64,000 nt of DNA, taken from contig JBAMJV010004017.1 in the NCBI GenBank assembly GCA_037951105.1, forward strand, positions 1 to 64,000. The letters are read 5' to 3'. The stretch is from Echinarachnius parma. Taxonomy: Eukaryota > Echinodermata > Echinoidea > Clypeasteroida > Echinarachniidae. Below, one piece after another: positions 12,200 through 40,376 of this stretch; within the stretch, counting starts at the first letter, position 1; each line of letters opens with the position of its first letter. The notes under the pieces are model-generated. The model saw only the letters and a program-made list of their open reading frames with translations. It made no database searches and was not told the DNA's origin. The position numbers and the translations under genes are program-made.

Positions 12200-12549
12200 G
12201 TTACAACTAATAGTTCTGTCTTGCTTTCATGTTATTCCAATGTTACCTTCGTCTTCATAAGTTCTTGCCCTAGTACTTGATGCATGTCTGGACCACTGGG
12301 TGGAAGACTTGAGTTAAAAATGTTCAGACATTCAATATTTCCAGGATCACATCTAACTATTAAAGGACTTGCCTTGTTTTAATTTTATCCTAACATTGCT
12401 TTTATCTTCATTTTCTTGACTGACTTCTTGAGGTACATGTGGACCATATTGTAGAAGACATTTTTAACATTCTTTGCAAAATCGAGTAGCAACTTACAGA
12501 TAGTCCTTTTATTTCCCCATTTGATCGCGACACTGCCTTGGTCTTCATA

Positions 12550-12903
12550 ATAATAATAATAATATCCACTATTTATATAGTGCCTATCACGATTGATAAT
12601 CATCTCTAAGCGCTTTACAATTTTATTATTACCCCGGTCATAGGATACAATGCAAACCAGCACACATTGTGTGCACCATCTCCACTCCCTGGGGAGTATT
12701 CCTTCCAAGCGCTCAGTGGGCTCAAGAAGATCGTTCACATAATAAAGGCTTTCACCTCTTACCGGTCCCCATTTATACACCTGGGTAGAGAGCAGCAATA
12801 GTGGATAAATTGTCTTGCTGAAGGACAAACGCCGTGGGCAGGGTTCGAACTCGGGATCTCATGATCGGAAAGCGCGCGCTCTACCAATCTTGCCACACCA
12901 CAT
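12550..12903 (-). mobile_element. tRNA-derived SINE with (TTA)n tail
   Basis: On the minus strand it begins 'gtggtgtggcaagattggta' and has a B box, GAGTTCGAACCC. The body includes 'aatactccccagggagtgg', and it ends 'gcactatataaatagtgg' followed by TTA repeats. This layout matches deuterostome SINE2-type elements. A second copy is at 31165-31548; fragments are at about 25440-25615, 33236-33480 and 47058-47135. It is inserted in a decayed copy of EXOSC6 exon 7. Confidence 0.85.
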
Positions 12904-13090
12904 CCACATAAGTTCTTGACCTGAGTACGTCAGGCATATTGAGGCCTCCGCTTAGAAGACTTGAGATAAAATTATCGGACTTCCAAAAATATTTTCAGGT
13001 TCAATCGCAACCGATAGTCCTGCCTTGTTTTCCATTGATCCCGATGCTGCCTTGATCTACATGTTCTTGACTGAGTTCTTGAGATTTGAG

Positions 13091-13453
13091 TAAGGCTGTC
13101 GATTTCGGGTATATTTACTACCCGGGACTCGCGATAATTTTTCGGGCGAGTCCCGGGTACCCGAAATTTATCCATTTGTTGATTTCGCTATGGGCTATAG
13201 GCATGTCACGCCGCTGGGAAAACATGTTCATTCAAGTGACAAAAATGCAGCGCATTTATGACAATAAATCATCTTCTAAAATACAGCAAAGAGGGAAAAA
13301 GGAATGAAAAGAAAATGAGAGTGGGCAGATAACTCGGGCGTTCAAAAAGGGGACTTTTTGCTTCTTTTTCGGGATATCGAGTATCGATTTTTGCGCCCGG
13401 GACTCGACATTTTTCGGCGGGACCCGGGTACCCGGGACTCGTCAACACCCTTA
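13091..13453. mobile_element. hAT-like MITE inside a decayed EXOSC6 exon copy
   Basis: The ends TAAGGCTGTCGA and TCAACACCCTTA are imperfect inverted repeats. The flanking 8-mers GATTTGAG and GATATGAG match at seven positions. The interior has repeated 'cccgggactcg' and 'gggtacccg' self-complementary motifs. Confidence 0.7.
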
Positions 13454-13712
13454 GATATGAGTAGACACGCAGTAAAAGACACAATCAAAGTCAAATGCTC
13501 TGACTTTTAGCATCTTTAATACTCGTTGCTATTGCAATATCACATAGCAACAGATGGTCGTGTCTCGTTCTCAATCGATTCTTATGTTGCTTCCGTCTTG
13601 ATTTACTTGACAGAGTTCTTCAGGCATGTTGAGGCCACTGTTTAGAAGACATTTGGAGTAAATTGCTCTGACTTTAAGTGTTTCATTGTCTTTAAAAAGC
13701 AATTTGTCCGGT

Positions 13713-13853
13713 TTAAGTAACAAGGGATGGTCCCGCCTTGTTCTCATTTGATCCCGGCGTTGCTTTCGTCTTCATCTTCTTGACCGAGTTCTTCAGGCAC
13801 TTGTGGACAACTGGGTATATCCGCTGGCTCCCTTCTACGCACTGTTGTAAAGC
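13713..13853 (-). CDS. EXOSC6: EXOSC6 exon 7 (terminal coding)
   Basis: It follows acceptor TTCTCCAG and encodes 46 residues, ending SLVT and a TAA stop. The tail is lysine-rich (KNSVKKMKTKA). It is the template of the decayed array at 12215-13700. Confidence 0.9.
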   Translation of the reverse strand, partial: ALQQCVEGSQRIYPVVHKCLKNSVKKMKTKATPGSNENKAGPSLVT

Positions 13854-16800
13854 CTGGAGAAAAATAGGACATTCATAAGAGCATTTTTGTTTTCAAAATG
13901 TGTGACTAATAATTTGATTTGATGTTATAATAAAACATAAAAAACATGATTGCACACTATAAGTGATCCAATACATGTCTTATTTATCCCAAATCACTCT
14001 GAGCTTTCATATCTCTGGTAAACCTTGTTGTTTGGCATTTGGTAACAGAAGAATGAAAAGGCTTTTTGTAATATTTCAAACGCCTCCCTAAATATGGAAA
14101 TAAACCGAACACAAAAAGTAACTTCACCCTAGGGAAAACATCATAATTTCTTAAATAATACCTTTATAAAGATTTTTCTTTCACCAAATGATTGCTATGA
14201 TGGAGCTGTAGCTTCTGTGAACGTACGGCTGACTGAGCACAAATAAAAGACAAAATGGTCACTTTTCAAAAGCTGCAAGATTTCATTCATGGCTAACCAA
14301 CATCACATCTGTTTTAACGCATCGATTGTGTCAAATCAAAACAGGGCCATTGCTATCGGGCTCTTACAGGCTGGTCTTCCACTACGTGGGAGATCCTTCA
14401 CCTCTCCAGTTTCTTGGAATTTTTAACGAAGATTTCTCATTGCGTTCTGGGAAATGCCCAGTGTCCGTGCTATACGTTTAAGAGGGGTCCCAGCCTGTAA
14501 GAGCCCGATAGCAATGGCCCTGTTTTGATTTGACAACTTTGGCATGATGGATTTCGATGACTTGTTGCAATTAATAGGCAAGGGAAAATGACAGACAATT
14601 CAACGTTTTAACCTTCATGTGATCTGTTTTACATGTGTGTTTATTTACAAATCACAAACAATGGCGGGAATTCAAACTGTATTGTTACACAGATCACAAT
14701 CGATGCGTTAAAACAGATGTGATGTTTGGTTAGCCATGAATGAAATCTTGCAGCTTTTGAAAAGTGACCATTTTGTCTTTTATTTGTGCGCAGTCAGCCG
14801 TACGTTCATGGATATGTCTGATTTTTACACAGAAGCTACAGCTCCATCATAGCAATCATTTGGTGAAAGAAAAATCTTTATAAAGGTATTATTTAAGAAA
14901 TTATGACGTTTTCCCTAGGGGTGAAGTTACTTTTTGTGTTCGGTTTATATATGATTGAATTTTAAAAAATGTTCCAGGAATGTATCAGGGATGCTTTTTA
15001 ATTGTATTCAAAATCAATGTGCAGCAGACGATCAAATCTGACATAAATTGTTTAACATTTTTCATTAGGTTATCCATTTTATATGCAATTCATCACACAT
15101 CATTCATCAGAATTATCACATAGCATACAATTTGTTACAGACTTTTTAACTGATAAGGTCTGGGGGGGTGGGGGGGGGGGCGGTGTTTCACAAAGATCCT
15201 AAGTTGATCTTAGCACTAAGATGGTCTTAAATATTATGGAAAGCCATTAGTGTCTTGAAACATTTTTGTAAAAGTTATGTTGAAATGCATAAAATGTTGA
15301 CTCAAATCATATATATTTTCTAATTATCAGAGATTTCATGAATTTTATGTGAAGATTATAAATCTCTTTGATAATTAGAAAATATATATGAATCAACATT
15401 TTATGCATTTCAACATACCTTTTTATAAAACTGTTTCAAGACACTAATGGCTTTCCATAATATTTAAGACCATCTTAGTGCTAAGATCAACTTATTAGGA
15501 TCTCTGTGAAACACCCCCCTGGTTTCAGTAAATACTCTGGCTCTGGTCTACGGAGAATGCAGCCATGTTGTAGCAAAATAAAATAATGGGTTAATGGTAG
15601 TTTACCTTTATAGAGTCTTCGCATTCAAGCTGGCCCCTCTGTACGAGCGCCGAGACTTGGTTGAGGGATGGGAGAACTCCCGCAGTGACTGCTGCCTGAT
15701 GCCCTTCATCCTTGGAGCTAGAGCTGTGGTACTCTTCTTCCAGAGTTGGATCCACGATAATCTCATCTCCAGATTGTCTCTAAAAACACAGAAAATATAC
15801 ACAATATTAAAGGTTTTTAACATGAATACTGGCAACAATTATAGTGTCATAGATGCACAAGACACTGATCAACCTTTAAAAAAGAGTGGAGAGACTTGAA
15901 TGAGCGATGGGAGAACTCCTGCAGTGACCGACGCCTGATGCCCTTCATCCTTGGAGCTTGAGCTGTGGTACTCCTCTTCTAGAGTTGGATCCACGATGAT
16001 GTCATCTCCTGCTTGTCTCTAAAAAAACACAGAAAGTATACACAATAAGCTATTCACCTGCATACTGGCAACAGTTATAGACTCTTACATATGTACAAAA
16101 CACTATTCAAGCTTCTAAAATCAAAGAGTTGGCTGAGTGATGATAGTACTCCTGCAGTGACAAATGCCAGATGCCCCTCATCCTTGGAGCTGACGCTGTG
16201 ATACTCCTCCTCTACCTTGTCTCTAAGAAACACAGAAAATAATTTAATCCTTAAAAATGTATCTTAAACTTAAAGTGGTTGTTCAGTTTTGGTATAGAGG
16301 GCGCTGCACGAAATAATTTTTTTTTTGTGAGATAATGAAAAACTGAGTGCAAATTTTGAAAGAGCATACAATTTTAATGGCAGAATAAACTTTATTTATT
16401 TTCAAAAATGTTCAAAAGAGGTTTTTAAATAGTTGTTGATGATCTCTCTATTTAATTGCTATTTCAACAAAATATCACATGCATAGTTTTGTATGAAAAA
16501 TGGTTGAAACAAATGCTTTTTTAGAGAGCGCCCTCTTGTGTTTTAATGGCTCTTTTTGAATGATAACCGGCTTTATACCTAGTCGTGTGTAATTTTCTAT
16601 ACCTTTCAAGCATGGTGGAATCAGTTTTGATTATATCTCCACCAAAATGCCTCAAAAAGTTGCTTTTTAAAAAGTTTTTTTAGTAGTATTTTGTATAAGT
16701 TACAAAATTACAAATGAACTCACCACTGCACAACCAATGACGATGTCATACATCTCAATGCCTGCATTAGCTACTGCCACCGATGCACATGTTATTGCCG

Positions 16801-19800
16801 CTGCCAAAGCTGGTCATTTCAAAGAAATCAGAACAAATAGAGGGAAATCATGTAGAAATCATAAAAATTCTGTTGTTATGAAATTTATTTATTCAACTCA
16901 CAAAAGCACAATATGTTATTGAAGCTGCTAGAACTTTTCATTACTAAACAATCAGAAGAAAATATCTATAGATAGAAATTATGTAAAAATTATTTTTAAA
17001 ATACTGTCTTGTTCCTGAATTCCCTAATTCAACTTGCCACTGACTCGCATGTTATTTCTGCTGCCAAAACTGTTCCTTTTTAGGAAATCCACAGAAAATA
17101 GAGAATAATAAATTAGAAATAATATGACAATATTAGACTTGTGTTGTTGAGTCTTAATTCTCATATTTAATTTCAGACATTTTATTAGTACTGCTACCAC
17201 AGATTGATATAAAAATGAAAGGACACTATACAGGGTGGCCCCCAAAAAATGGAACGGGGCACTTCCCAAAATAACGTACCAAAATATTTATGTCCATCTG
17301 ATATGGTTTCTTTTCCAATAAAAAACGATACCAAGAACAGTCATTTTGGTTGTGTAGTTTTTGTTTTAGGACGCTGTGAGTGAGACCATGTCAGGTGCCT
17401 ATTTTTGTCAATTTTTACCTAGTCAATGCCAGTTAAATCTCACTGCCTGCCTGTAATACCACTGAACGAACATGCCCATTCTCTCGGCACACGGCCGAGA
17501 GCACACTAACAATGGCGCGCCTTGTTCAATGCTATGAAAGACGGTACATGTGCTGTATCAAGCACTGGCTCGGTAAAAATTGACAAAAAAGAGAACCTGA
17601 CATGGTGTCACTCACAGCGCCCTAAAACAAAAACTACACGACCAAATTGACTGTTCTTGGTATCGTTGCTCATTTGAAAAGACGCCCTATCCGATGGACA
17701 TAATACATTTGTTACTATATTTTGGGAAGTGCCTCGTTCCGTTTTTTGGGGGCCACCCTGTATAATCACTAAAATGCTGTTGTGTATCTTTTTCTTTAAT
17801 TTTTGACTGCTAATTAAACCCTATGATTTGTTTTGTTGCTGCAAAAGCTCTATTTCCAAAGACAATGGAATTAGAAAGACAAAAAAACCTACAAAATAAC
17901 TCTGATCTAAACTGATTTCTCTTCATTTAGCAGAATATGACTGATTATTTGCATCCCATATTTAAAAAGGGAACTTGGTTTATGATATACTTTTATTAAT
18001 ACTCACCACTCCCATCATTTTCCAGTACCGTTATAAAAATGTCCACCTGGGATTTGGGGATCTTGTGCTAAATAGAAACAAACAAACAAAACAGTCTCAA
18101 TAGTTTGGTACATCTATGATACAGCAATCGACAAAGTACCAATAAAAGATTTAGTAAAAAATAATAACATAATTTATTTTTTGTTATTATTGAATTGTGC
18201 TTAGATACTCTTTCTATGCACTTTGAGATAAATTGTAATATTGTGCCTATAAGGAATTGACTGTTGTTGTTGATAATGATAATTTGTATCATTATGATGA
18301 TCATCATTCTCATTATTATTATTACTATTTGTATTACTATTATTATGACTGCTTCAATCGAAGCTCGTTATAAATAAAGAGTTTGATATAGCAAAATCTC
18401 TTATAACACAGTACTTTTGCTGGTCCAAGCTCTTAATATTCTTTTGTTGTTGACCCTGACATAACAAGATACCTGATACAAGGTCATTTTCATAGTCCAA
18501 AAGTTGTGTTATTAACAACTAACAAGGTTCCACTGTATATTGCAGGCATGTGAGTGAGGTAAGAAAAAGAAAAAGAGGAAAGTCGCGGCGTAATTGCATA
18601 AGTGTGCGGGAAGTGCACATTGCGAGCACAAAGTCCATTGGGGCTGGGGTCCAGGCCTTGAAGTTTATGAGTATTAAATGCTCTCTGGTGCATCCTCGAC
18701 CCTATTTGTCATAATTCTTGCATAATTACTAGGTAAGATTTGGTAAGATTTACGTTTAAACATTATCTAGATACATTTAATAAAGTTTTTTTTTTTTTTT
18801 AAACGTGGAAGTCTCACATGCCTGATATTGAAAGAGAACTTACCAAGCACACTGCCGGTTCCAAAGCCTGCTGCACCTGCAGTCCCAGCTCCCTCTCCGT
18901 GCTGTCAGTCATGTGACCACGCCGGACGTGGCACGAGAAGGTCGCGAACTTGAACTCGCACCGGAGCTGACCGCTCATGGTGAACCCCTCCCGGCGGGGG
19001 ACTTCCCGAGGCCCGTACACGGCACAGATCACCTTGGTGTTGCGCATCTCGATGTAGGCTGACCCCTTGGCCTGGCTGACCGCTCCTGCCTTCAAAACTG
19101 GTCAACAAACAAGCAAATAACAATTTATAGTTTGGGTAATATTTTATTCTACAATATTCTATGATACATATTGATCAGTATAATTTCTGAAGCCTTTTGG
19201 ATGCAATCAAGCATGGAAGAAGGCAATACAAAACAAAATGTCATACCTTCCAAAATGTTAGTTACTTAAATCATTAGTTAGTCCAATTGTGACACTGACA
19301 ACATTATTTTTGCGCCCTCTGCATTGCCCATCTAGTGAAACCGGATATTTTTTTCTAAATGCATTGTTCCATTCTGTTTGTTTTGTTTTGTTTGTTTGTT
19401 TGTTTTTTGGGGGGTCACCCTGTACTTATTTGTATGTGCTTCATTCCCTCATTATTTAAGCCAAATCATTAAAGGGACTCAAGAGAGTATCCAAAGATTA
19501 CAAATCACACTTTCCAGTTGATAGATGGGGATTTAAATGACAACCACATAAATGTTTAGATTAAACAAAGCGTTAGTTGGATTTTAAGATTAAACACAAA
19601 CACAAAAACAATGAAGAAATCTTCTTGTCAAATGTACTCTATTTTGGTCACTCAAAGTATCTAGCTGATTACTTATATAATGAGGGCTGAGTCCAAACGG
19701 ATATCCGTTCGGTATCCGACCGTGAAGGTCGGATACGGGTACATACGAAAAAAGAAAATAAGAAAAATAATTGGAAAAAATTTGGAAAAAAAGAGGAAAA

Positions 19801-22111
19801 CAAATCGGATTTATCCGAAATGTAAAAAGAAAAGAAAAAATAGTTTAAAGGGTACCATCACCCCAAAATAATATTCTTATTATAGAAAGGAAACATCTTT
19901 AGTATTCCATTCCTTCAATAAATTCACAAAATATGTTTTCAGAAAAAAATATATAATTGGCAAACTCATCACCATTCTCAACCATGCGTTCATGCGGTCT
20001 GAATGCGAAGACTATAATGTGCGCAGAGCCAGAGCGCTCTGTGCAGAGCGAACGAATCATCCGGGATTCTAGACGTACGCGTGAATAACATTGGCGCACT
20101 CGCAAATGCTTGGCCAGTATGGAACCAGGAAATAGCCGTGGTTCCGTAAGTGGTGCAAATTAATTGCTTTGTTTATGAATTACACAACCCTTTGCAAAAT
20201 GTTGGGTATCTATTTGATATCACAAAACTGTACCAAAACATATAATAATGTGTTGTCCTTTGCCAGGTGGTCCCCTTTAACCATGGTTGAAATATCAAAT
20301 ATCAAAGGTCCATGTTTGCTTGTTTTTTACATTTCGGATAATTCAGAATTTTTAGTTTTAGTTTTTCAATATTTTTGTTTTATTTTTTTATTTTGTATTA
20401 TTTTTTTTTTTACATTTCGGATAAATCCGATATCCGTCCGTTTTTAACTTGGCTCATATCGTTTAACCCAGCCCTTCTTATAATTCACTTATTCACTTGA
20501 AATTTGTGAATGAATCAAACAAAATCTATAAACATTTAAGAAGGAATGAATCTAGATTCTAGATCGAAAGTTTAAAAATCTTTTAGTACTTGTTTTATAC
20601 TTTGGTTTCACAGTTGCAAACTGTGAAACGCACAACAGCTTGCTGTGCATGCATAGCCCCTAAACATTCGTACTAGTACTATAGAGATAACATTTTAGTC
20701 TGTGCTGTTGATGGTGATAACATCATTATAGGCACAAAAGCTTTCCCACTTACATATCGGGCGTATCTCCTGCACAGTTCTCCCATCCAAACGTTTTCCT
20801 TCAAGTGCACTCTAGAATGAGAAATAACAACAATCTTGAGTAACATTCCAGACCTAAATTAGATAAATCAACCACAAAATTTCTTCAAAAGCTTTCTAGA
20901 TTTGTTGCATAAAATATCTTACCCCACTGTGCTTATAATTAGTTGGGGGAGTATCAACTTTGATACAGGAAAAAATAATTGCATTTTAAAATTTTAAAAT
21001 TAGTAAGCCGAAACATGCAAGTACTACTCGTAAAAAGAACGGATGCTCTCATCATGCCTGATCGGGATCGTTTCTGCCGATTTCCGATCATGCAGAAAAA
21101 TCGGAAGATCGGATCGGCAAAAAAAAAAAAAAAAAAAAAAAGTTTTTTTTTTCTTTGGAAAATGATCCCAAAAAACATATTTTGGGAAAATAAATGAATA
21201 CCAAAGCAACATATATCCATATGAATAAGCCCAAGGTAATCTTGTATGGGTATGCTTTCATTTCAAACTGATTACCTCTCCTTTTACAAAATTACTTGCA
21301 GCGATTCTGAAAGGTTACTAAGCTCAGTCCCATGTGATTAATTTGGCGTAACCTTTGTCTTTGAGAATCGCCGCGAGTAATTTTGTAAAAGGAGAGGTAA
21401 TCAGTTTGAAATGAAAGCAAACCCATACAAGATTACCTTGGGCTTATTCATATGGATATATGTTGCTTTGTTATTATTATTTTTTTTTTTTTTTTTTTTT
21501 TTTTAAATCCGATCCGATCCGATCTCCGATCCGATTTCTGACATTGATACAATTTTGCCGATCCGATCAACCGATCCGATCATCAATTCAAGGACAAGGT
21601 CAGTTACAGCATTACAAAATTTTAATCTTGAAATTGAGGGAGAAATTGTACACCTAGCAGCTTCAACTGGATGGAACAAACATGGACAATTGACACACAA
21701 ACAAAGTGCAGTCAACACTCAATGAATCAATCGAATCAAATTAAAAAAGTAAAAATTAAATAAATTTGTATTGTCACACATTCTTGGAATTCAGATGAAA
21801 GGCTCCCTTTTGATAGTAAACATGATGGCTATGTTGATTATTAAGTAATATTAACGAATAGATTAATCAAGCTTGAATTTCTTAACTATTTTTAAAGAGT
21901 TTCTCAATTTACAAATATCCCCCCGTAACACGATAATCGACGTATGGGACTGTAGAGAAAAGACGTAACACAAAACTTCACGTGTGGGACTGGACATTTA
22001 AAAAAGTATACAAAACGTACTTACCGATTCAGATTTCTGCACGATCTCTCGATATAAATAGGCACTTTGTGACTCCTCTGGACCTTGAATTCTCATGGTG
22101 TCCTTCGGCAT
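13713..22111 (-). CDS. EXOSC6: EXOSC6 (MTR3), RNA exosome core subunit, 7 exons
   Basis: EXOSC6 is a catalytically inert RNase PH-fold subunit of the nine-protein exosome core, which channels RNA to the nucleases DIS3 and EXOSC10; in human it pairs with EXOSC8. Coding exons on the minus strand: 22111-22025, 20811-20754, 19097-18844, 18067-18007, 16809-16724, 15779-15606 and 13853-13713. All junctions are GT-AG and keep frame, giving 286 aa (human 272). The N-terminus reads MPKDTMRIQGPEES, as in vertebrate EXOSC6. LDGRTVQEIRPI and SQAKGSAYIE (exons 2-3) are RNase PH family signatures. NAGIEMYDIVIGC (exon 5) and CVEGSQRIYP (exon 7) match the family C-terminal half. Unlike its neighbours, it carries decayed tandem exon copies beside exons 5, 6 and 7. 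The identification is secure. Confidence 0.95.
14103..14945. mobile_element. Tc1/mariner-derived foldback element
   Basis: Long inverted arms of roughly 230 bp begin AACCGAACACAAAAAGTAAC and end with the complement. TA dinucleotides flank both ends (14101-14102 and 14946-14947), the Tc1/mariner target. The core (about 14343-14545) holds a broken transposase start and is itself palindromic. A 233-bp relative with the same ends is at 32329-32561. It lies in EXOSC6 intron 6. Confidence 0.85.
14343..14545 (-). pseudogene. Truncated Tc1-type transposase, N-terminal HTH
   Basis: From ATG at 14545 the minus strand encodes about 40 residues including NRAIAIGLLQAG and RIARTLGISQNAMR. After one in-frame stop it continues with FQETGEVKDLPRSGRP. 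This is the paired-like helix-turn-helix arrangement and GRP linker at the start of Tc1/mariner transposases. The catalytic domain is absent. The end of the fragment is an inverted repeat of its own start. It cannot encode an active transposase. Confidence 0.8.
15182..15516. mobile_element. Foldback MITE in EXOSC6 intron 6
   Basis: The two halves are nearly perfect inverted copies, with ends 'gtgtttcacaaagatcctaa' and its complement and a loop near 15345. Arm length is about 150 bp. G and C runs border it on both sides. No ORF. Confidence 0.85.
15606..15779 (-). CDS. EXOSC6: EXOSC6 exon 6
   Basis: It follows acceptor TTTTTAG and encodes 58 codons in phase 0, ending CTATAAAG|GTAAAC. The peptide runs RQSGDEIIVDPTLEEEY to LNQVSALVQRGQLECED; VDPT..EE and the LNQV segment are conserved in the family. 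This copy is taken as the real exon because only it has the complete 3' part and a donor. Two decayed copies lie upstream. Confidence 0.9.
15869..16018 (-). pseudogene. Tandem copy of EXOSC6 exon 6, still open
   Basis: This copy lies 239 bp upstream of exon 6 and keeps the acceptor (TTTTTTTAG). A 49-codon open frame runs from RQAGDDIIVDPTLEEEY to VLPSLIQ, differing from the real exon at only about five of 41 comparable residues. It then diverges and stops (TGA at 15871-15869), having lost the donor and the exon 3' end. If spliced in, it would shorten the protein. It may be a poison or alternative 3' exon rather than inert. Confidence 0.75.
16130..16222 (-). pseudogene. Second decayed copy of EXOSC6 exon 6
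   Basis: The acceptor-like TTCTTAG and the start AGACAAG remain. A deletion then removes the part encoding IIVDPT and shifts the frame, although 'tccaaggatgaggggcat' is still recognisable. The spacing to the previous copy is 204 bp. Confidence 0.7.
16264..16715. mobile_element. MITE family A, copy 4 (right end lost)
   Basis: The left end 'aaagtggttgttcagttttg' and body ('tatagagggcgctgcac', 'gttgttgatgatctctctat') follow family A order. The right terminal repeat is not found. The copy ends a few bases before the EXOSC6 exon 5 donor. Confidence 0.7.
16724..16809 (-). CDS. EXOSC6: EXOSC6 exon 5
   Basis: It begins in phase 1 after ATGACCAG and encodes ALAAAITCASVAVANAGIEM followed by YDIVIGCAV, ending TGCAGTG|GTGAGT. 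The NAGIEMYD block aligns well with EXOSC6 and RNase PH relatives. Confidence 0.92.
16895..17885 (-). pseudogene. Decayed copies of the EXOSC6 exon 5 acceptor side
   Basis: Blocks at about 16895-16970, 17030-17100 and 17830-17885 repeat the exon 5 start and the intron before it. Examples are 'cgcatgttatttctgctgcc' and 'ttgttgctgcaaaagctc' against 'gcacatgttattgccgctgc' of the true exon. Frames are broken. The last copy is separated from the others by the element at 17231-17760. Confidence 0.6.
17231..17760. mobile_element. Mariner-like foldback MITE
   Basis: The ends CAGGGTGGCCCCCAAAAAA and TTTTTTGGGGGCCACCCTG lie between TA dinucleotides (17229-17230 and 17761-17762). Arms extend about 180 bp. 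No ORF. A solo end is at about 19404-19423. It lies in EXOSC6 intron 4. Confidence 0.85.
18007..18067 (-). CDS. EXOSC6: EXOSC6 exon 4
   Basis: It follows acceptor TTCTATTTAG and encodes HKIPKSQVDIFITVLENDGS in phase 0 in, phase 1 out, with donor GGGAGTG|GTGAGT. LENDGS corresponds to the conserved LEDGGS segment. Confidence 0.92.
18357..18535. mobile_element. pogo-like MITE copy
   Basis: It resembles the better copy at 30270-30434. The right end reads 'aaggttccactgta'; the body shares 'gctggtccaagctctta' and 'gaccctgacataacaagata'. The left end is worn. Confidence 0.6.
18844..19097 (-). CDS. EXOSC6: EXOSC6 exon 3
   Basis: It follows GACCAG. The split codon plus 84 codons run LKAGAVSQAKGSAYIEMRN to QQALEPAVCL, with donor TGCTTG|GTAAGT. 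SQAKGSAYIE and ERELGLQVQQALEPAV are the strongest EXOSC6 matches in the window. The exon is far more GC-rich than its introns. Confidence 0.95.
19680..20478. mobile_element. MITE with a second MITE nested inside
   Basis: The outer ends 'gagggctgagtccaaacgg' and 'cgtttaacccagccctt' are imperfect inverted repeats, with 'cggatatccg' motifs inside both. The inner element (about 19845-20279) has ends TTTAAAGGGTACCATCACC and GGTGGTCCCCTTTAA. ORFs over it have no recognisable domain. It lies in EXOSC6 intron 2. Confidence 0.6.
20754..20811 (-). CDS. EXOSC6: EXOSC6 exon 2
   Basis: It begins after CATTCTAG and encodes SALEGKRLDGRTVQEIRPI, ending GATAT|GTAAGT in phase 1. DGR..EEIRPI is the classic start of the RNase PH fold. 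Confidence 0.93.
20975..21600. mobile_element. Foldback element with GATCCGATCGG-rich borders
   Basis: The core at 21196-21472 is a near-perfect palindrome (arms 'gcaacatatatccatatgaa', loop near 21330). It is bordered by an A run on the left and a T run on the right. Outside these are matching GATC/CCGAT-rich arms, so the inversion extends to about 20975-21600. It lies in EXOSC6 intron 1. Confidence 0.75.
22025..22111 (-). CDS. EXOSC6: EXOSC6 exon 1 (start codon)
   Basis: It starts at ATG 22111-22109 and encodes MPKDTMRIQGPEESQSAYLY and nine more residues, ending GAATCG|GTAAGT. The QGPEES motif and length agree with the vertebrate protein N-terminus. No TATA box is evident upstream. Confidence 0.93.
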
Positions 22112-28074: not shown

Positions 28075-28094
28075 CTTAATTCTTCCAGCTATCT

Positions 28095-30260: not shown

Positions 30261-30269
30261 TCATAAATA

Positions 30270-30850: not shown

Positions 30851-31164
30851 TACACAAGTACAACAACACATGAAGTCAAGTATGTTAATTACTGTTAATA
30901 TCATTTTGAAATAAATACACTTCCACCAGTCAATTAACATATCAATATCAATGCTTTATAAAAAAAAAATAACGGTAATATTTTCTTTCTAGAACAAAAT
31001 CATAATCAAGCAAAATAGAGACAATTGTCTCTGGAACAAGAAAAGATATAAATAAAGAGGTTAGTTTATAGGTAAAGGTTCTCATGGGTGTAATAATAAT
31101 AATAATTCAAGTAATTTGTTTTTAGCCTCTGAAGAAGATCCTGCTAGGATCGAAAATTTAGGCC

Positions 31165-31548
31165 CTATATTGACTCTCAATAACAATAATAATAATAGGT
31201 TAAATATAATAGTGTTGCGTATGAAACTGTATCATCTCAAAGCGCTTTACACAATTATTACCCCAGTCACAGGATACAACGCAAACCAGCACACATAGTG
31301 TACAACATCTCCACTCCCTGCGGAGCACTCCTTCCAAGCGGCTCATGGGCATTGAGGAAATAATTCATACAAAAGGTGTTTACCTCCTACTGAGTCCTAT
31401 TTATACACCTGGGTAGATCAGCTATAGTGGATTAATTGTCTTGCAGAAGGATAAACATAATAGGCATAGACTGATTTCAAACTGGGTATCCCTTGATTGG
31501 ACAGTTCCCATGCTCTACCAATCTTGCCACACCACGTCCATAGCCTAA
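31165..31548 (-). mobile_element. tRNA-derived SINE, second copy
   Basis: Colinear with the SINE at 12550-12903 in the same orientation: 'caaagcgctttacacaatta' tail region, 'tatttatacacctgggtaga', and the tRNA-like head ending 'accaatcttgccacaccacg'. The B box is mutated ('tttcaaactgggta'). Confidence 0.8.
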
Positions 31549-31934: not shown

Positions 31935-32640
31935 CCCTAAGATAAACTTCAAGCATTTATGTATTTGTAAATGAACATATATATTTGATAGAGGATAAAT
32001 AAGTTAGGGGAATTTCAAAGAAACTATCAGAAACTTAAAAAAAGGAGTAGTTCTTTCTTAAAATGTACTTGAAGCACTTGTGTTTGTTGTGCTGGATCCT
32101 TGTCTTAAAGCGCACCAAGTCGACCCCGCACTGTAGAGTAGCGAGGTGTTACCACAGAGCTCTGTGAAGAATTGACGCACTAACATTTGTGGACGTAAAG
32201 GAATTATCTAGAGAAAAGGTGTGGTTCTATCTAAATGAACTTGAAGCACTTGTTTGTCGTGCGGGATCCTGGTCTTAAAGAGCACAGAGCCGACCTTGGA
32301 ATGCATGCAGAACAGCGGGGTGTAACTAAACCGAACACAAAAAGTAATTACCCCCCTAAACAAATGCTTAGTATTTCATAACTAATCATTTTCCCAAGCT
32401 ATAATTTTACCACAACATTTCTACAGTTGTTGTAAACTTTTTGAAAATCAGAGATATCCATCACTTCCTGGCTGAATGAGCACATAATTATTAAAGACAA
32501 AATGACCCACTTTCAAAAGTCATAAGAACTTGTGGGGGGTAGTTACTTTTTGTGTTCGGTTTATATAGCTGAAGAATTGAATGCACTTGAGATGCTCATT
32601 GACGTAAATGAATTATCTGGAGAAAAGGGCTGGTTATCTA
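31935..32640 (-). pseudogene. Decayed tandem copies of the EXTL3 last exon
   Basis: Three copies lie downstream of the real terminal exon. The best spans 32231-32326 and resumes at 32564, split by a MITE. It still reads as the [10 protein letters not shown] region but has a 2-base loss in the KQKC stretch and a TAG stop. A second is at about 32065-32190, and a worn trace at about 31937-31965. Spacing is about 165-172 bp after removing the MITE. They probably lie in the EXTL3 3' untranslated region. Confidence 0.8.
32329..32561. mobile_element. Tc1/mariner MITE inside an EXTL3 exon copy
   Basis: The ends AACCGAACACAAAAAGTAA and TTACTTTTTGTGTTCGGTT match the 843-bp element at 14103. TA duplications lie at 32327-32328 and 32562-32563. 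It interrupts a decayed copy of the EXTL3 last exon, so it is younger than that duplication. Confidence 0.9.
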
Positions 32641-32850
32641 TTAAATAAACTTGAAGCACTTCTGTTTGTCGTGCGGTATCCTGGTTTTAAAAAGCACAGA
32701 GTCGACCCTGTACTGCGTGTAGAGAAGCGGGGTGTAGCCATACAGCTTGGTAAAGAATTGAATGCACTTGTGACGTTCGTGGAAGTGGGATTCGTCCATG
32801 GAGAGGGCCTCGGGGCATCCAGCGCAACGGAACGTCCATCGAGAGGTCAC
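32641..32850 (-). CDS. EXTL3: EXTL3 coding exon 7 (terminal)
   Basis: It follows acceptor TTATCCAG and encodes [17 protein letters not shown] through [15 protein letters not shown] to FKFI and TAA. The cysteines and the C-terminal FKFI match the family end of the GT64 domain. Confidence 0.95.
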
Positions 32851-33976
32851 CTGGATAACGAGACGAAAGAAGAAAAATTGTATGTTAATGATACATTATA
32901 TCAGGGTGCCTGAAATGGACATAAAGATCTTGGTGATAATAATACAATAATATAAAGTTTAAAGTCTGCAATCGATTTAGGTGCACTATTCAGAGGCACA
33001 CTGTTAAGCTGCGTTTCCATTAGAGAGAATTTCCGCGGCGATTTTTTTTTTTTTCCCAGCGAATTATTGAAAAAATCGCTCTAAGGAGAGATTTAAAAAA
33101 TTTGCTTGCGAATATTCGCCATGTAATATGAATAATATATGAATAACACTGATTTGGTCCGTGCGAATGTTCGCGGTGGAAATTTGCCACAGAAATTTGC
33201 TGCGGAAATTCGCTCTAATGGAAACGCAGCTTTATTCCACACAATTATCTTGTGCACCATATCAACTCCCTGTGGAGCATACTAGCCAGAGCTGCTCTAC
33301 AAGAGTGGTACATGATCAGTTCATAACGTCCCACAAAATGCCCATTTAAACTCTGATTGGTTGGTTGGTTATTTGGTTTTGGTAGACGCATTCAATCGAA
33401 TATGATTACTTACGCCTGGTACCGCCTTTATTGTCACCATCCGAGAGATTCAAGCTAGGTTTTGAACCTGGGTAGATTTGTGCATTCTAGCATTACAGCA
33501 TTACAGCATTATAGCATTACAGCATTACAGCATTACAGCATCTAGCATTGTAGTTAGTGAACTTGCAAATAAACTACTTGCCTTGATAGGTGGCTTGCGT
33601 GTGACATGCGACACCAGGAAGTTCATTGCAATGTCCTCGCAGTTCATGTATTCATCCACCTTGTCTCTGATTGGCTGCGGCATTGTGTGGGTGTATAGGT
33701 AGGTGTAGTACTGTAAGGAGATAAGATTAGAATGAGATATTGACGATTACACAGATAGTGGCTCATCAGCAAAATCATATGGTTAAAATGTATCTTAAAA
33801 TGTATCTTAAAATGTAAGGTTAAAATGTATCTTCCTAATTTTCCTATCACACTGATCAACATTACCTTTTCCAGTCTACCAACAACATCATTACATCATC
33901 ATCACTTTTGTTACTATTCAGGCGTTCTAGATTTAACAACGTGATCATCATCCTCTTCATAATCTCATCATCGTCG

Positions 33977-34019
<43 letters not shown>

Positions 34020-34051
34020 CATCCTCATCATCATCATCCTCATCCTCATCC

Positions 34052-34087
<36 letters not shown>

Positions 34088-37000
34088 ACACCACCATTAC
34101 CAATCTACAAACATCACTACACCCTCATCACTGTCTTGTTGTTCTCATCGTCATAGTCGTCATCATTATCATCAACATAACCATCATCACCAAAATGTGC
34201 GAAAGGGCACATTTTTACAAAGGCGGCTGAGGTCTCTTGCCCAAATACTATCCTTTTTGCCTGAATATAACGTAGTTTTGCACGAGTACGAAATGATTTT
34301 GCCCAGATATGAGATTTTGCCTGAATGTATGATTCCGCCCGAATAAGGTCGTTTTCTTAACTCTACGGGGCGGGCTGCATCCCCCTAGCCACCCACCCCC
34401 TGCCTCATATGCCTATAATCACCAACATCATCATAAACACCATCACTGTCTTTACCTTGTGAGAGAAGGCAGCACCAGTTAGAACCATGGAGAGCTTACA
34501 GGAGTAATCAGCACAGTACAGGAAGCCATCATCCTCATTATCATCATTATCACCATCATTATCATCCCAACCATCATCATCACCATTATCACCATTATAT
34601 TCCTCCTCCTCCTCATTGTCATCCTCATCATCATCACCATCAACACCACCACCACCACCACCACCACCACCACATCACCACCAACACCATCATCGTCGTC
34701 GTCTTACCTTGTGAAAGAAGGCAGCACCAGTGAGAACCATAGAGAGCTCACAGGAGTAGTTAGCACTGTAAAGAAAGCCGTTCCTGTAGTTGAGGTCCCA
34801 GGCGTGGTAGCGGCCGGGAAACCCCACGACCCTGTCTCTCGACTCTCTCCAAACCCTGCAACAAAGAATATAAATCAACACAATTTAACCAATTGAATAT
34901 GTAAAGGATATATTGCATATTTGGAACTTTGGTGCCATAAATATGAACTTGGAGAGTGATCTCATGTTCAATACGATAGTGGCATGCCAATTTGTTAATA
35001 AAAACCAATTTGTTTACAAACTTGATGCAGGCCACTAGTCAGACAACTAACAAACTCTTGATACTATCCAACATATTTTGTGCTCACAGGGCGGCTTCTG
35101 TCTCAACATCAGTTCTATGTATCATGGTAACTTTGATTCTAACTTACATTTTTGGCGCTAACTGATAATAATGAGCCTGTTTTAAACTAACTCTAATACT
35201 AACCCTTACATTCAGCTCTAACTATGATACTAACCTGAACCCAAAGAGGATCTCATCGTGTCTGAGGTGTGCATCGTCATATAACTCTGATACTAATTTA
35301 TATTTTTGGCGCTAACACTGATAATAATGAGCCTGTTTGAAACTAGCTCTAATACTAACTATCACATTCAGCGCTAACTCTGATACTAACCTGAACCCAA
35401 AGAGGATCTCATCATGTCTTAGATGTGAATCATTATATAGCGACAGGATGGCCTATGTCTCAATATACATTATAAGTTTAGTGCTAACTTTGATACTAGC
35501 CTACAGGTTTGGTGCTATTTCTGTAACTATCCAACACATTCAGCACTAACTCTGATACTAACTTACACGTTTGATGCTAACTTTAATACCAAATTTCATG
35601 TAGGGTGCTAACTCTGATACTAACCTTAACCCAAAGAGGATCTCATCATGCCTGAGGTGTGCATCGTCATCCAGTGATAGGATGGCCTCCGTCTCAATCT
35701 CATTTTAAGTATAGTGCTAACGTTGATACTAGCCTACAGGTTTGGTGCTATTTCTGTAACTATCCATCACATTCAGCGCTAACTCTGATACTAACTTACA
35801 CGTTTGATGCTAACTTTAATACCAAATTACATGTAGGGTGCTAACTCTGGTACTAACCAACACATTTAGCACTAACTCTGATACTAACCTGAACCCAAAG
35901 AGGATCTCATCATGTCTGAGGTGTGCATCGTCATCCAGCGACAGGATGGCCTCTGTCTCGATCTCATTGTAAGGCAAGAAGCGGTTGTTCAGACTGTTGG
36001 CTTTAGTCTTGATGACCTAAAATTATCAAGAAACAGGGAAAAGAATTGTTATAATTGTTACTTTAATTGTTCTAAAGTGTTGATTCGATCAAAGCGACAG
36101 CATGAGTGTATCTTGTCATGGTACGGGTAACAGGGCGTAGATACAATGTAGATTTAAAATGGAAAATGGTTGACAGGGACTTCAAAATTAATTGACTTAT
36201 TATGTGTTTCTTCTAAAGCAACTTAAGTCACTCACAAATTCCTGATCATACTGACTGCGGTGTTCTTTGAGATTCACCCGTGGCCCACCACTCTGGATGT
36301 AACTCTCTCAGTGCCAAATCTAATTGCAAGATTTTACTATAGCAAAAGTTACACAAATATCAGCCCTCCCCCCCCCCCCCCCTACTCCATTCATTGAAAG
36401 TAATTGAATGCTTGGAATTGGAAAGCAGTCAAGTGTGCATAACATTCATTTTGCATTCATGCATTTATGAATAGAACAAATCAACAGCAGAGCTAACATT
36501 AAAATTTAAAAATCAGGAAGATTTAGAGAAATTTCATCAGAAATCAGGAAGTTAATTATAAAATGCATACAACCTAATGACAATAACTTTTCGTAAAAAA
36601 TAGTAAGATTGGCTATCCTATGCAGTAATCTTGGTCTATTTTCAGGAAGTCGTTTGAGAAATCAGGAAGACTTGGCAGCTCTGCAACAGTTCTGATTTGA
36701 TTGTATTGTATTGTGAGTAGTACCAAGTAGCGTGATTACCTTTATGGGCACATGTATTTCAGGCCAGACCAGATCAGATGGTGGAGGTTCTGGGGAGTTC
36801 CACACAACTAGCACCTGGAATGGAAACAAAACAAATATTAGTATAATATATCAAATGAAAACACTCAAATGTAAAATACATTGAAATTGCCACATTAGAT
36901 TTCTTAAATAACTGCATTTATCCCGACAATGCGAATAAGTTAATCACAAATTATCTGAAAAATAAAGTTGACAAAATAAAACCTTGAACTAAATATTCAT

Positions 37001-40000
37001 TCACTCTAAGGTTTTATAATGAGGTCATCAAACATTCTTGATTACTCTTTGATTGCAATATTTACAATATATCTTGGGCAAACAAATTTATGGTCAATAA
37101 AGCCAATTCCATTCTGGCATCTTGGGACTTGAAGAAGGGTCCTAAGATCAGTAGAATTCAAACCTTATGTTCAATATGTAACCTTCTTTAATGACCCTTT
37201 CCCTCAACATTATCAACTCACCTTGTTCAAGAAAGGAAGACCCATGAGCCTCTGGAGAGAGTTCATCAGCACCGCTTCCCTCTCGTAGGTCAGCATAACA
37301 ATGGTGAACTGTTCCCTGGGAACATTGCCTCCAAGGGACTCCTGGAACTCCTTCCCCGTACCTCCAGCCCCTCCTCCCACGGGACGGAATCCCAGCGATG
37401 ACCCCAGGAACTTGGCATCTGAGGGGACGACAGGATCGAAGGGTGTGTGAGGGAAGAGGTACTGGGCTCCAGGAGGGTTGTTCCAGACGGAATGGGTGTC
37501 CATGGCTGTGATGGTGAAGTTGCGGAGGAATTTGGGAGAGGGGAATGGGAGCTCCGGCGAGGGGAAGACATCGTCCGACTCCGGGTACATCTGCTCTGCC
37601 CGCTGCGTCTTCTGAGGGTTGTCCTCTGAGAACATGTCTATGGCTTTCGCTTCGGGCACAACGTTTGCTGGGATGCCCAATCGAGTCCTCACGTTGGCAA
37701 GAATCCCGTTGACGACGGCAGTGGTCGTTGACAGGTAGGTTGTCCAGAGGAACCAACCCTGCCTCCTGAGCTTCAGGATATCATTGTCCTGGACTGTCTT
37801 CAAGTAAAAGTACAGTTCTGTGATGCGAGCGCGGGGAAGAACAATGGCCGCTTCCTTCCAGGAGACAAACTCACTGAACGGCAACTGCATATGCTCGCCT
37901 ACTATAACGGGTATTGCACCTGTTTGAAGCGCTTCAAAGAAGCGCGAGTAAAAGGTTGTGGAAGATACTATGTGGTCTCCAGGACCTATAATAAGAGCAT
38001 ATGTTGACTGTTTTAAAAGCTTTAAGCGCTCTGTCTTGCTATTGCATAGCTTCCAGTCTGAGGCATCAATGCCATCCAAAGCTTTATAACTTTTACATGC
38101 AAAATCAAGGTGTACTCTATCATCTGTAAGAGATTTTAACTTATCCAACTCTAAAATTAGAACATCTTCAACAGATCTAGTCCTATCTACATCTTTCAGT
38201 CTTCTACTTAGAGGCGCAGTATCTCTGTCTACATATTCAACCGGAATCATTGTCTGCGTAGGTTTAGATCCCTGATACGTGATAAGGTACCTCCTCCGTG
38301 CCGGAAACTGAAGAGGCACATCCTTCCAATCTGTCCCGGAGCTCACCCCGATCAGCATAGGCGCAGCGACGTCGAACCCTTCGCGGAACTGCGAGTCGGC
38401 AAAGGGAGTCTGCACCACTATGGCACGACCCGTATTCACATTCTGCAGAATGTTCCTCGTGGAGAGGCTGCGCACGAGGTGGAAGAGAAGATGGTTCCGA
38501 CCATCGTTCCTCCAGTACGGCAGCTTATGCAGTCTGGTCTCCAACTCCTGGCTGCTGGTGGACACACCCTGATCCTCTAGCTCACCCACTAGCACCACGT
38601 AAACACACGCTATGTTTGCATCGCGAGTCAGATACGAGCTCCTGCCCAGTGCGTTTGTCACAGTGAGCTTAATGGTCTGATCCAGCTTTCCACCGTCCGA
38701 CCAGAGGTCCTCGGAACCGTAGACGTACACCGGGAAGCGGGATGTCAGCGAGCAACGGGAGTAGTCGAAGCACGTGTGCTGGCGACAGCGGGATGGCGAA
38801 TTAGGCGGCTCTATGTCAGCGGCGTCCTCAAGACTTGGCAGGATCTGATAAGGGGCAGAGATGTGCTGCAGGCTGCGCTCCACGATCTCGCCCTGGTCAC
38901 GGATGGTCTGCTGGATCTGGTCTTTGATGCGGTTCCGCTCCGTCATGGCACTGCGCACCTCGGACTGCACCTGCTCCAGCTGCTGAGACAGCCGTGTCAC
39001 CTAGTGATATGATAAAGTATTAAAAAATTTAAAATAATTTCTTAATATTGTTCCTGCGAATAAAATAACACAATTAGCAATAATAATTGAACAATGCTTA
39101 AAGCCTCTCTCCCTGCGGCTTCCTGGCATGAAACACATCGCAACTTTAGATCTCCAGTGTTGCAACAAATAGTTAAATCAAGTGAAAGATCTCAGTCCCA
39201 ATCACTTAAAAACTTTTTAAAGGGCAGAGAGTGCAAGTCCACATTTTGGACCTGCACAAGAGGCCAGTTGCAGCTTGTCTCGTGGAATCTCAGTCACAAC
39301 TTGTCACAAGCTTTGAGTCTCATTGTGGGATTCGGGCTTCATATTTCCAAGGGAGACTTAATTTCAAATACTGATTTTGTCAGATTCTGAATGCACAGCT
39401 TAAATTTAATTTTAAAATCTTCATGGATACGATGTAAAGTAAACAACAAACCTGTGCCTGAAGTAGCTTCTGTTTCTCTTCCAGTTGCTGCAGCTCCGTC
39501 TGCACCGAAATCTTGATCTGGTACAGCGTCACAAGGTGCATCTTGAGCTCCCCAGGTTATAATGTCTACTGAAAGTACGGCTTAAATATAATAACAAATC
39601 GTCATGGATCGGATGTCAAGCAAACAAACAAACCGTTTCTCTCCCGGTTGCCGCAGCTCCGTCTGGACCGAACCCTTGATCCGGTACAACTCGGTGAGGA
39701 GTGTTTGAGCTCACCGGGTTATAATACCCACTGAAGGGAAAACTTTAGATTCAGTAACAAATCTTCAAGAATAGTATGTAAAGCATAGAACAAACCTGTG
39801 CCTGAAGTAGCTTCCGTTTCTCTTCCAGTTGCCGCAGCTCTGTCTGCACCGAGCCCTTGATCCGATACAGCTCCACGAGATGCGTCTTCAACTCTCCGGG
39901 TTTCAGGGCCTTCATCTCCTCCGCGCTCATCACGAAGCCACGCTGATCCGGCGAGTCCAGATCAGAGTTGCTCAGGTAGTAGTGCGTGAGCAAGGGCAGC

Positions 40001-40221
40001 ATGATCAGGATTACGAGCAGGACCATGATCAGCCGCGTCAGGTGGCCGCTCCGCTGGAGCCACTTGGCGAACGTCGCGTTGTTCGACGACGGCGACGACG
40101 CATTGGTCGATGACGGTGACCGCGGAGCGAATGACGTCTCCTTCTTGCTAGGATGGTCGTAGTCGTAATCCATGGCAGGCTGCTGCGGCCCCCACGGCGG
40201 GTACGGATCGCTGAAGGACAT
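32641..40221 (-). CDS. EXTL3: EXTL3, exostosin-like 3 glycosyltransferase, 7 coding exons
   Basis: EXTL3 is a type II ER/Golgi membrane enzyme that adds the first GlcNAc to the linker tetrasaccharide and so starts heparan sulfate chains. Coding exons on the minus strand: 40221-39796, 39000-37222, 36814-36740, 36016-35889, 34855-34708, 33710-33582 and 32850-32641. All frames join, giving about 964 aa (human 919). Residues 1-60 form a Ser/Asn/Pro-rich cytosolic tail; 61-82 a membrane anchor ([14 protein letters not shown]); about 120-190 a coiled coil. A GT47 (exostosin) domain follows, with [20 protein letters not shown], and then a C-terminal GT64 domain. The GT64 domain has LSLDDDAHL (acidic nucleotide-sugar/metal motif, about residues 786-794) and [10 protein letters not shown]; the protein ends KCFKFI. 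One donor is GC instead of GT. Decayed exon copies adjoin four exons. Confidence 0.96.
33006..33232. mobile_element. Foldback MITE in EXTL3 intron 6
   Basis: The ends AAGCTGCGTTTCCATTAGAG and CTCTAATGGAAACGCAGCTT are perfect inverted repeats. The interior has several 'gcgaat' and 'attcgc' motifs. No ORF of substance. Confidence 0.88.
33236..33480 (-). repeat. SINE fragment
   Basis: It shares 'cacaattatcttgtgcacca' and 'ctccctgtggagcatactag' with the SINE fragment at 25440 and ends at a worn tRNA-like 'gttttgaacctgggta'. Confidence 0.5.
33486..33550. repeat. 8-bp tandem repeat
   Basis: Seven units of ACAGCATT with single changes, just inside the intron beyond the EXTL3 exon 6 GC donor. Confidence 0.9.
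33582..33710 (-). CDS. EXTL3: EXTL3 coding exon 6, GC donor
   Basis: It follows CTCCTTACAG and encodes [20 protein letters not shown] to TRKPPIK, 43 codons in phase 0. The junction reads ATCAAG|GCAAGTAG. A GC donor with otherwise ideal consensus is required by the protein alignment, because the next exon begins with VTSRW directly after AG. Confidence 0.94.
33960..34090. repeat. (ATC)n microsatellite
   Basis: CAT/ATC triplets with 'cctcat' interruptions in EXTL3 intron 5. The poly-Ser frame is an artefact. Confidence 0.95.
34456..34527 (-). pseudogene. Tandem copy of the EXTL3 exon 5 3' part, still open
   Basis: It lies 252 bp downstream of the exon 5 donor and repeats the last 24 codons as [18 protein letters not shown] then AAFSHK, with no stop. 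It keeps a donor (CACAAG|GTAAAG). No acceptor matches the exon start. It could act as a decoy or alternative donor if an upstream acceptor were used. Confidence 0.75.
34530..34700. repeat. (ATC)n/(ACC)n microsatellite
   Basis: Triplet-rich tract between the exon 5 copy and the real exon 5 donor, ending 'caccatcatcgtcgtcgtc' immediately beside the donor. Confidence 0.9.
34708..34855 (-). CDS. EXTL3: EXTL3 coding exon 5
   Basis: It follows TGTTGCAG and completes a split Arg codon, then encodes [20 protein letters not shown] to [16 protein letters not shown], ending CACAAG|GTAAGA. This is the core of the GT64 domain. Confidence 0.95.
35085..35705 (-). pseudogene. Decayed tandem copies of the EXTL3 exon 4 3' part
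   Basis: Copies with exon/intron junctions at 35625, 35391 and 35235 repeat 'cccaaagaggatctcatc' (the codons for DEILFGF) with worn upstream codons. A trace at about 35088-35110 repeats the ETEA region. Spacings from the real junction (35889) are 264, 234 and 156 bp. The intron parts share 'gctaactctgatactaac'. Donor-like sequence persists but reading frames carry changes. Confidence 0.85.
35889..36016 (-). CDS. EXTL3: EXTL3 coding exon 4, DDD motif
   Basis: It follows TTAG and encodes [20 protein letters not shown] then [18 protein letters not shown] to GFR in phase 2, with donor TTCAG|GTTAGT. The three adjacent aspartates are the expected sugar-nucleotide/metal site of GT64 enzymes. Confidence 0.96.
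36740..36814 (-). CDS. EXTL3: EXTL3 coding exon 3
   Basis: It follows ATTCCAG and encodes 25 codons, [20 protein letters not shown] to VPIK, ending ATAAAG|GTAATC. It starts the GT64 domain. I see no tandem copies near it. Confidence 0.94.
37222..39000 (-). CDS. EXTL3: EXTL3 coding exon 2 (large, GT47 domain)
   Basis: It is 593 codons long in one open frame. It starts [16 protein letters not shown] (coiled coil) and continues through CFDYSRC, the exostosin domain, [15 protein letters not shown] (a typical GT47 segment) and [19 protein letters not shown] to LNKV|. The donor is AACAAG|GTGAGT. No frame break. Confidence 0.96.
39450..39722 (-). pseudogene. Two tandem copies of the EXTL3 exon 1 3' part
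   Basis: Copies at about 39452-39560 and 39630-39722 repeat the last ~35 codons of coding exon 1. The farther one stays open ([17 protein letters not shown]) and retains the donor CACAG|GTTTG at 344 bp, twice a 172-bp period. The nearer one has lost the donor region. Both start just after a stop-creating 'tataacc', and neither has an acceptor. Confidence 0.8.
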
Positions 40222-40376
40222 TCTCGCAGACGCCACTTCACCTTTCGTCCAATAGATGCCTGAAATGTCTTCTCATGTTGTTTCTTAGTACAGGTGTCAC
40301 TTTGATGGCAGGCATATTTCCAAATATTTTGTCTTCACATTCTGTGTCCTTCGGTACTGAATGTCGGCCTCATTTC
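39796..40376 (-). CDS. EXTL3: EXTL3 first coding exon with 5' UTR part
   Basis: An acceptor (TTCATCTTTACAG) at 40378-40377 suggests a non-coding exon lies upstream. Coding starts at ATG 40221-40219 and runs 142 codons. It includes the membrane anchor and ends [10 protein letters not shown] at CACAG|GTTTG. A longer in-frame start would need GTG at 40236. Confidence 0.9.

Follow-up and report, generated by a model that had tools for sequence, protein, structure and literature searches.

Many coding exons in the genome analysed here are accompanied by partial copies of themselves that lie in tandem beside them. We describe these copies in a stretch of 64,000 bases (hereafter the window; positions 1-64,000 of the 76,964-bp contig C4015, in an assembly of 1.2 Gb and 14,790 contigs), where they adjoin seven exons of two neighbouring genes, EXTL3 and EXOSC6, and in a sample of 71 other coding exons, 34 of which (48%, interval 36-60%) have a partial copy within 600 bp. 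We give a little better than an even chance to the view that short tandem duplication is frequent and general in this genome and that conserved exons make its debris visible; the lean of the copies towards exon starts is left unexplained by it.

Each of 12 coding exons of the two genes was searched, as exon sequence only, against 900 bp of flank on either side. Partial copies were detected for EXTL3 exons 1, 4, 5 and 7 and EXOSC6 exons 5, 6 and 7, and none for the other five. These are exactly the seven exons for which an earlier note on this DNA had claimed copies of the exon edge, and self-alignment reveals local direct repeats at every one of the sites it named. Neighbouring copies are mostly ~124-260 bp apart in the self-alignment, in agreement with the claimed period of ~125-265 bp. 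The copies of the four EXTL3 exons are all downstream and extend to the exon end, those of EXOSC6 exon 7 are downstream and come within 5-8 bp of the exon end, and those of EXOSC6 exons 5 and 6 are upstream, the nearest-start copies beginning at exon base 1-2. The rule of sides proposed in the note (copies 3' of the four EXTL3 exons and of EXOSC6 exon 7, and 5' of EXOSC6 exons 5 and 6) holds, but it is geometrically forced, as any edge-spanning tandem duplication places the exon end in copies 3' of the exon and the exon start in copies 5' of it. The exons and their arrays are as follows (CDS, coding sequence; UTR, untranslated region).

39796-40221, minus strand: EXTL3 coding exon 1, true copy, with ATG at 40221 and donor GTTTGT from 39795
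39387-39902, minus strand: array at the end of EXTL3 exon 1, 107 bp of exon plus intron
35889-36016, minus strand: EXTL3 coding exon 4, true copy
35058-35973, minus strand: array at the end of EXTL3 exon 4, three extra copies
34708-34855, minus strand: EXTL3 coding exon 5, true copy
34420-34779, minus strand: array at EXTL3 exon 5, one extra copy at 34542-34456
32641-32850, minus strand: CDS part of EXTL3 terminal exon 7
32040-32786, minus strand: array at the terminal exon of EXTL3 (exon 7), in which stop codon and 3'UTR recur in two extra copies
16724-16809, minus strand: EXOSC6 exon 5, true copy
16775-17173, minus strand: array at the start of EXOSC6 exon 5, with two aligned copies lying 5' of it
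15606-15779, minus strand: EXOSC6 exon 6, true copy
15645-16214, minus strand: array at the start of EXOSC6 exon 6, two copies 5' of the exon
13713-13853, minus strand: CDS part of EXOSC6 terminal exon 7
12204-13809, minus strand: array at EXOSC6 terminal exon 7, copies of CDS end and 3'UTR

The note's description of duplicated exon-intron edges applies to five of the arrays (EXTL3 exons 1, 4 and 5 and EXOSC6 exons 5 and 6). EXTL3 exon 7 and EXOSC6 exon 7 are terminal exons, and what is duplicated there is the stop codon with 3'UTR instead of a splice site. EXTL3 exon 1 has two copies (~39569-39720 and 39387-39558), both 3' of the exon, which hold up to its last 107 bp plus intron, and the last of them retains CAG/GTTTGT (the slash marks the exon end). 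The three extra copies of EXTL3 exon 4 (35704-35612; 35464-35378, which contains a stop; 35278-35231) hold the last 46-85 bp of the exon and each is followed by a donor, GTTAGTATCA; the intron part of this array is itself a minisatellite of ~31 bp that starts at the donor. The copy of EXTL3 exon 5 retains AAG/GTAAAG and is separated from the true exon by trinucleotide repeats. At EXTL3 exon 7 one copy is interrupted by a dispersed inverted-repeat element (~32330-32565) and is counted as single. The exon-only search recovers one of the two aligned 5' copies of EXOSC6 exon 5, and both copies of EXOSC6 exon 6 retain a T-rich tract and AG. The copies of EXOSC6 exon 7 lie at ~13489-13637, 12907-13083, 12360-12459 and 12217-12308, and a tRNA-like short interspersed nuclear element (SINE) at 12542-12906 interrupts the array.

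EXTL3 lies on the minus strand, and its seven coding exons (CDS 40221-32641) join into one open frame whose top match in the Protein Data Bank (PDB) is Exostosin-like 3 (E 2e-162). The splice sites are standard, except for a GC donor after exon 6: intron 6 starts with GC at 33580-33581 (AAG/GCAAGT) and is a GC-AG intron. EXOSC6 is downstream of EXTL3 on the same strand (top PDB match Exosome component 6). Homology and splice sites locate its coding exons 3-7; exon 2 was not found, and tblastn alone picked up a start-like exon at 22111-22052.

The arrays differ between contigs. On contig C2565, EXTL3 exon 2 is found with 98% identity, and colinearity with the window extends over 8.7 kb, which suggests that C4015 and C2565 are alleles rather than recent paralogues. 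We compared the EXTL3 arrays of the two by counting how often the exon end is matched, with the true copy in the count. Exon 1 has three matches in the window and two in C2565, exon 4 has four and two, exon 5 has two and four, and exon 7 has four in both, or three and four if the pieces split by the insertion are taken as one copy; copy number therefore differs at three of the four arrays, or at all four under the latter count. Three of the C2565 exon 5 copies match the window exon over 69 bp with 97-98.6% identity. Given these copy-number differences and near-identical copies, the EXTL3 arrays act like minisatellites and some copies look young. The copies had been described as decayed, with one functional copy retained while the others drift. 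The second part is borne out, and most copies are indeed diverged; the exceptions are the C2565 exon 5 copies and one copy of EXTL3 exon 4 in the window that is 98% identical over 46 bp. Three exon loci of the Cpn60_TCP1 family (L009, L010 and L011, the first two 96% identical) have differing partial copies downstream, another sign of array turnover.

Tandem duplication in the window is not confined to the genes. In a map of local duplications (copies 60-700 bp apart, simple repeats masked and dispersed repeats excluded), coverage is 13.6% in the gene span and 13.7% elsewhere in the window, and arrays are equally dense in non-genic DNA. Within the gene span every array of this map touches an exon, and laxer settings add two exon-free arrays there (13101-13434 and 33859-34132). 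Compared with circular shifts, local tandem duplications overlap 7 of 13 exons where 2.9 are expected (P=0.005), and a stricter count of arrays spanning an exon edge is not significant (6 versus 3.2 expected, P=0.17). Non-genic arrays are located at 40865-42336, 48541-49183, 50759-51050, 52532-54238 and 57998-59739, with a spacing of ~170-650 bp. They may hold exons that are not annotated, or conserved anchors outside coding sequence. Other genes were looked for by six-frame Pfam scanning of 1-9990 and 40300-64000, where none of the five matches reached its family cut-off, and Rfam and tRNA scans of the window gave no match.

The sample of other coding exons was assembled from the best-scoring matches to three Pfam families (30 of 63 for PF00118, 30 of 82 for PF00063, and all 13 for PF00171). 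Merging these 73 loci at 85% identity left 52, to which we added 14 neighbouring exons within the same loci, some with less than 600 bp of flank, and five of 134 kinesin matches (PF00225). With one duplicate row (a second match at L094) dropped, this gave 71 exons from four families, each searched as exon sequence only against 600 bp of flank. The kinesin locus on contig C4289 was chosen after overlapping matches had been noticed and is hence biased; without it the count is 33 of 70. Reversed flanks gave no match in 142 and flanks from another locus one in 142. The linked exons are spread over 21 of the 39 sampled contigs (from a contig list typed by hand). To our knowledge, there is no figure for the fraction of exons with such copies in other genomes.

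Copies are located upstream of 26 of the 71 exons and downstream of nine, with one exon having both. This bias (25 versus 8 one-sided exons) has P=0.005, and becomes 28:12 (P=0.017) when the internal edges of the window are added. Of 44 upstream copies, 28 include the exon start and none the exon end; of 10 downstream copies, seven include the exon end and none the exon start. The automatic exon edges overshoot at some loci (L012 at 35003, L051), so that the number of copies that reach the exon end is, if anything, underestimated. None of the 54 copies holds both exon ends, as had been claimed for the window. The minimum spacing within exon-linked arrays, searched for between 60 and 500 bp, has a median of 181 bp and lies within 138-227 bp in 26 of 27 arrays; arrays that are not linked to an exon are similar (40 of 41 within 107-246 bp). 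The closest copies diverge from their exon by 6-37% (34 arrays). In the 19 of 34 arrays where both parts align, median divergence is 0.12 for the exon part and 0.20 for the intron part, as it should be when drift is restricted to one of the two exon copies.

Sequence without exons was also surveyed for arrays. The controls comprise seven SINE-anchored loci, five arbitrary stretches (two of them with arrays) and the non-genic DNA of the window. SINE-anchored loci contain seven arrays in 23.5 kb, or 0.30 per kb (spacing 101-233 bp), and exon flanks contain 0.27 exon-free arrays per kb, some of which belong to neighbouring exons. We then masked the exons, so that only non-exonic sequence could reveal a duplication, and measured array coverage in the 250 bp beside acceptors or donors. 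Coverage is 13.0% upstream of acceptors, 5.3% downstream of donors and 14.3% in far flanks, and in the controls 7.7% (SINE-anchored and arbitrary stretches), 12.9% (window non-genic DNA) and 10.2% (pooled). Unmasked, the values are 26.3% upstream and 10.3% downstream. Masked loci with an array upstream number 15 of 71, compared with 68 of 362 in the pooled controls (P=0.62) and 47 of 176 in the window (P=0.42), and masked loci with an array downstream number 7 of 71 (P=0.09 versus pooled). As the excess drops to near background on masking, the exon sequence itself accounts for much of the raw excess. This suggests that old duplications stay recognisable because a conserved exon serves as their frozen reference, an effect that explains part of the excess.

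We therefore favour, on the probability given above, a general duplication process seen through conserved sequence. The genome would often duplicate short local segments in tandem, in all kinds of DNA, at a spacing of ~140-230 bp, typically ~180 bp, which is nucleosome-like in size; the mutational step may be slippage during replication or the repair of staggered breaks by fill-in. Where a duplication spans an exon edge, splicing could continue with the copy that remains attached to the rest of the exon, the first for a donor and the last for an acceptor, and the other copies would become intron or UTR and drift, probably neutrally and with splicing proceeding normally. The array would then expand and contract like a minisatellite, and duplications of a whole exon would presumably be selected out. 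Selection would hold the true exon near constant, so old duplications would stay recognisable for longer and exon edges would look favoured.

Several results weigh against this account. In simulations of uniform neutral duplication around a frozen exon, with parameters chosen by ourselves, 15% of exons are linked at a background of 14%, 23-24% at 20-22% and 6-8% at 4-8%, compared with the 48% observed. Random placement predicts 6.6 linked exons (from SINE-anchored and arbitrary stretches) or 17.8 (from window non-genic DNA, P=0.03) where 25 of 52 exon matches are found; at an identity of at least 80% the values are 1.2 and 2.6 against nine of 52, and at an identity of at least 85% they are 0.6 and 2.2 against six. 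These chance expectations are overstated, given that pseudo-exon placement in the controls counts overlap with any copy. The masked upstream count exceeds that of the SINE-anchored and arbitrary stretches taken alone (15 of 71 versus 21 of 186, P=0.047), and the upstream bias is not predicted by general duplication. Homology of the intron part is clear (z>3) in only 11 of 33 arrays, by z-scores that carry little weight given that chance alone aligns AT-rich introns well. A few copies end ~20 nt or less from the splice site. A residual excess of ~2-3-fold, mainly on the acceptor side, remains beyond the frozen-reference effect. It may stem from a mutational bias at acceptors, from stronger selection against duplicated donors, or from faults of the model.

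A rival view, which we consider a real but rather doubtful possibility, is that the duplications are seeded by a process linked to the boundaries of exons and to 3' splice sites above all; one could speculate about breaks or replication trouble at a nucleosome-poor polypyrimidine tract beside an exon-positioned nucleosome. Seeding of this kind would account for the upstream bias, for a raw array coverage of ~37% at acceptors versus ~6% at donors, for the proportion of linked exons above that simulated and for the survival of the excess among arrays of at least 80% identity, and the partial Pkinase match pairs, scored by eye, lean the same way (three upstream, one downstream). However, masked coverage upstream of acceptors is close to that of far flanks and pooled controls, the internal edges duplicated in the window are two acceptors and three donors, and kinesin partial match pairs, again by eye, are two upstream and three downstream, two of the latter being probably alleles; the count is also small, at 71 exons and four families. 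No overlapping pairs were seen by eye among ABC-transporter matches. The earlier note had proposed a locus- or genome-wide process that seeds duplications at exon boundaries. The occurrence of the copies in many genes is confirmed by the sample; seeding at the boundary is possible but not established. In its broadest form, that in an echinoderm lineage a process at 3' splice sites duplicates nucleosome-sized blocks and leaves about half of the coding exons trailing decaying copies of their first part, the proposal is tentative and less probable than general duplication.

Alternatively, exon pieces could have been inserted nearby by a templated or RNA-derived route, with homology ending at or near the splice junction. 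At L094, L012 at 35003, L026 and L029 the homology does stop ~10 nt or less from the junction, with an exon part only 8-16% diverged; but multi-copy tandems include intron (L024, L056, L064 and EXTL3 exon 4), and fast drift of AT-rich intron can imitate a sharp edge, so that we give this route little credence. Retention of the copies for a function, such as decoy splice sites or splicing-regulatory RNA, seems very unlikely: some copies preserve AG or GT signals, but copy number varies between allele-like contigs, and copies drift or contain stops. Least plausible of all, to the point of being scarcely credible, is an artefact of assembly. Both haplotypes are present for many genes, as near-identical pairs on two contigs, which could invite such errors; mis-assembly would, however, yield near-identical copies rather than the divergence measured for the closest ones, and the linked exons are spread over more than half of the sampled contigs. 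The C2565 exon 5 copies are the least secure against this reading.

The closest precedent is the amphioxus mirage minisatellites of Adh3 and the globin genes BflGb6 and BflGb9. Globin units are 150-160 bp, and the globin report, which cites Adh3 and further amphioxus genes, suggests that mirages are possibly general in cephalochordates (PMC3087553); the amphioxus precedent named in the note thus exists. Lancelet PGBD5 and TnC are added as mirage cases in a further report (PMC3902484). As in these mirages, unit number here differs between what are probably two haplotypes (three of four EXTL3 arrays on the allele-like contigs), AG and GT signals are often retained next to one authentic copy, and tandem copies span an exon-intron boundary at the five exons other than the terminal ones. 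Normal splicing despite duplicated signals, and somatic instability at the Adh locus, belong to the amphioxus description. Most copies here are diverged and in this respect closer to the imperfect PGBD5 repeats. Unlike the amphioxus descriptions cited, which concern single genes, our data extend to 34 of 71 exons in four Pfam families, with an upstream bias. We suggest that the arrays work like mirages, and do not claim common descent. Anatomy and behaviour match mirages; what is new is the phylum, the prevalence in the sample and the upstream bias. Among the literature matches listed (titles and abstract openings, with most subscription journals outside the scope), none reports the same pattern in echinoderms.

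In contrast to the cephalochordate distribution of mirages, the mitochondrial code here is of the echinoderm type. A COX1 gene is located on a mitochondrial-like contig of 19,741 bp (C14600, 8089-9429, minus strand), a length that is long for an echinoderm mitochondrion, and was aligned to a solved COX1 (8ugh_4A; 362 of 446 residues identical). Of its 17 ATA codons, 11 fall at Ile, two at Met, three at Leu and one at Val; the single AAA is at the second Asn of PRMNNMSFW, TGA is at Trp in 12 of 12 cases and AGA at Ser in one of three. ATA as Ile together with AAA as Asn corresponds to table 9, used by echinoderms and flatworms, whereas ATA is Met in cephalochordates. So close a match of the protein disfavours a flatworm, and the genome is thus most probably that of an echinoderm and not of amphioxus; a single AAA codon gives little ground for setting a hemichordate aside.

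Two other known phenomena are comparable. Whole-exon tandem duplication likewise leaves exon-derived copies beside the exon, and differs in that no copy found here has both exon ends. The second is intron gain in which exonic sequence with a proto-splice site is duplicated in tandem, described for Drosophila (PMC2891723) and reported for potato RdRp (PMC4974935). It resembles our arrays in that a short duplication touches a coding exon and splice-like sites. In intron gain, however, a new intron forms from part of a duplication inside coding sequence, whereas here an existing edge is spanned and the extra copy falls in an existing intron or UTR. No sign of a new intron within a coding exon was seen at EXTL3 or EXOSC6, where the copies lie in introns and 3'UTRs and the EXTL3 frame is intact over its seven exons.

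If about half of the coding exons carry partial copies, the genome would let one study in nature how the splicing machinery passes over decoy sites. The arrays would also inform on the origin of small tandem duplications and on how often new introns or exons arise from them, and a phenomenon reported from cephalochordates would be wider. Apparent targeting of exons would then have to be told apart from better survival of the evidence at conserved sequence; were a process targeted to acceptors nonetheless real, it would be a lineage-wide, ongoing source of decoy splice sites.

Dispersed or inverted repeats total ~16 kb of the window. The SINE that interrupts the EXOSC6 exon 7 array has a tRNA head (judged by eye) and an ATT-repeat tail, and is also present at 31175-31540. 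It is found over most of its length at at least 40 places in the genome at 96-100% identity, the window copies included, and thus belongs to a recently active family. Self-palindromic elements resembling miniature inverted-repeat transposable elements, with 79-87% identity, lie at 26065-27654, 17227-17764, 15178-15519 and 21187-21483. TAC/ATC trinucleotide tracts of up to 236 units are present at 2744-3460, 4202-4469 and 33944-34087, the last in EXTL3 intron 5 between the exon 5 copy and exon 6.

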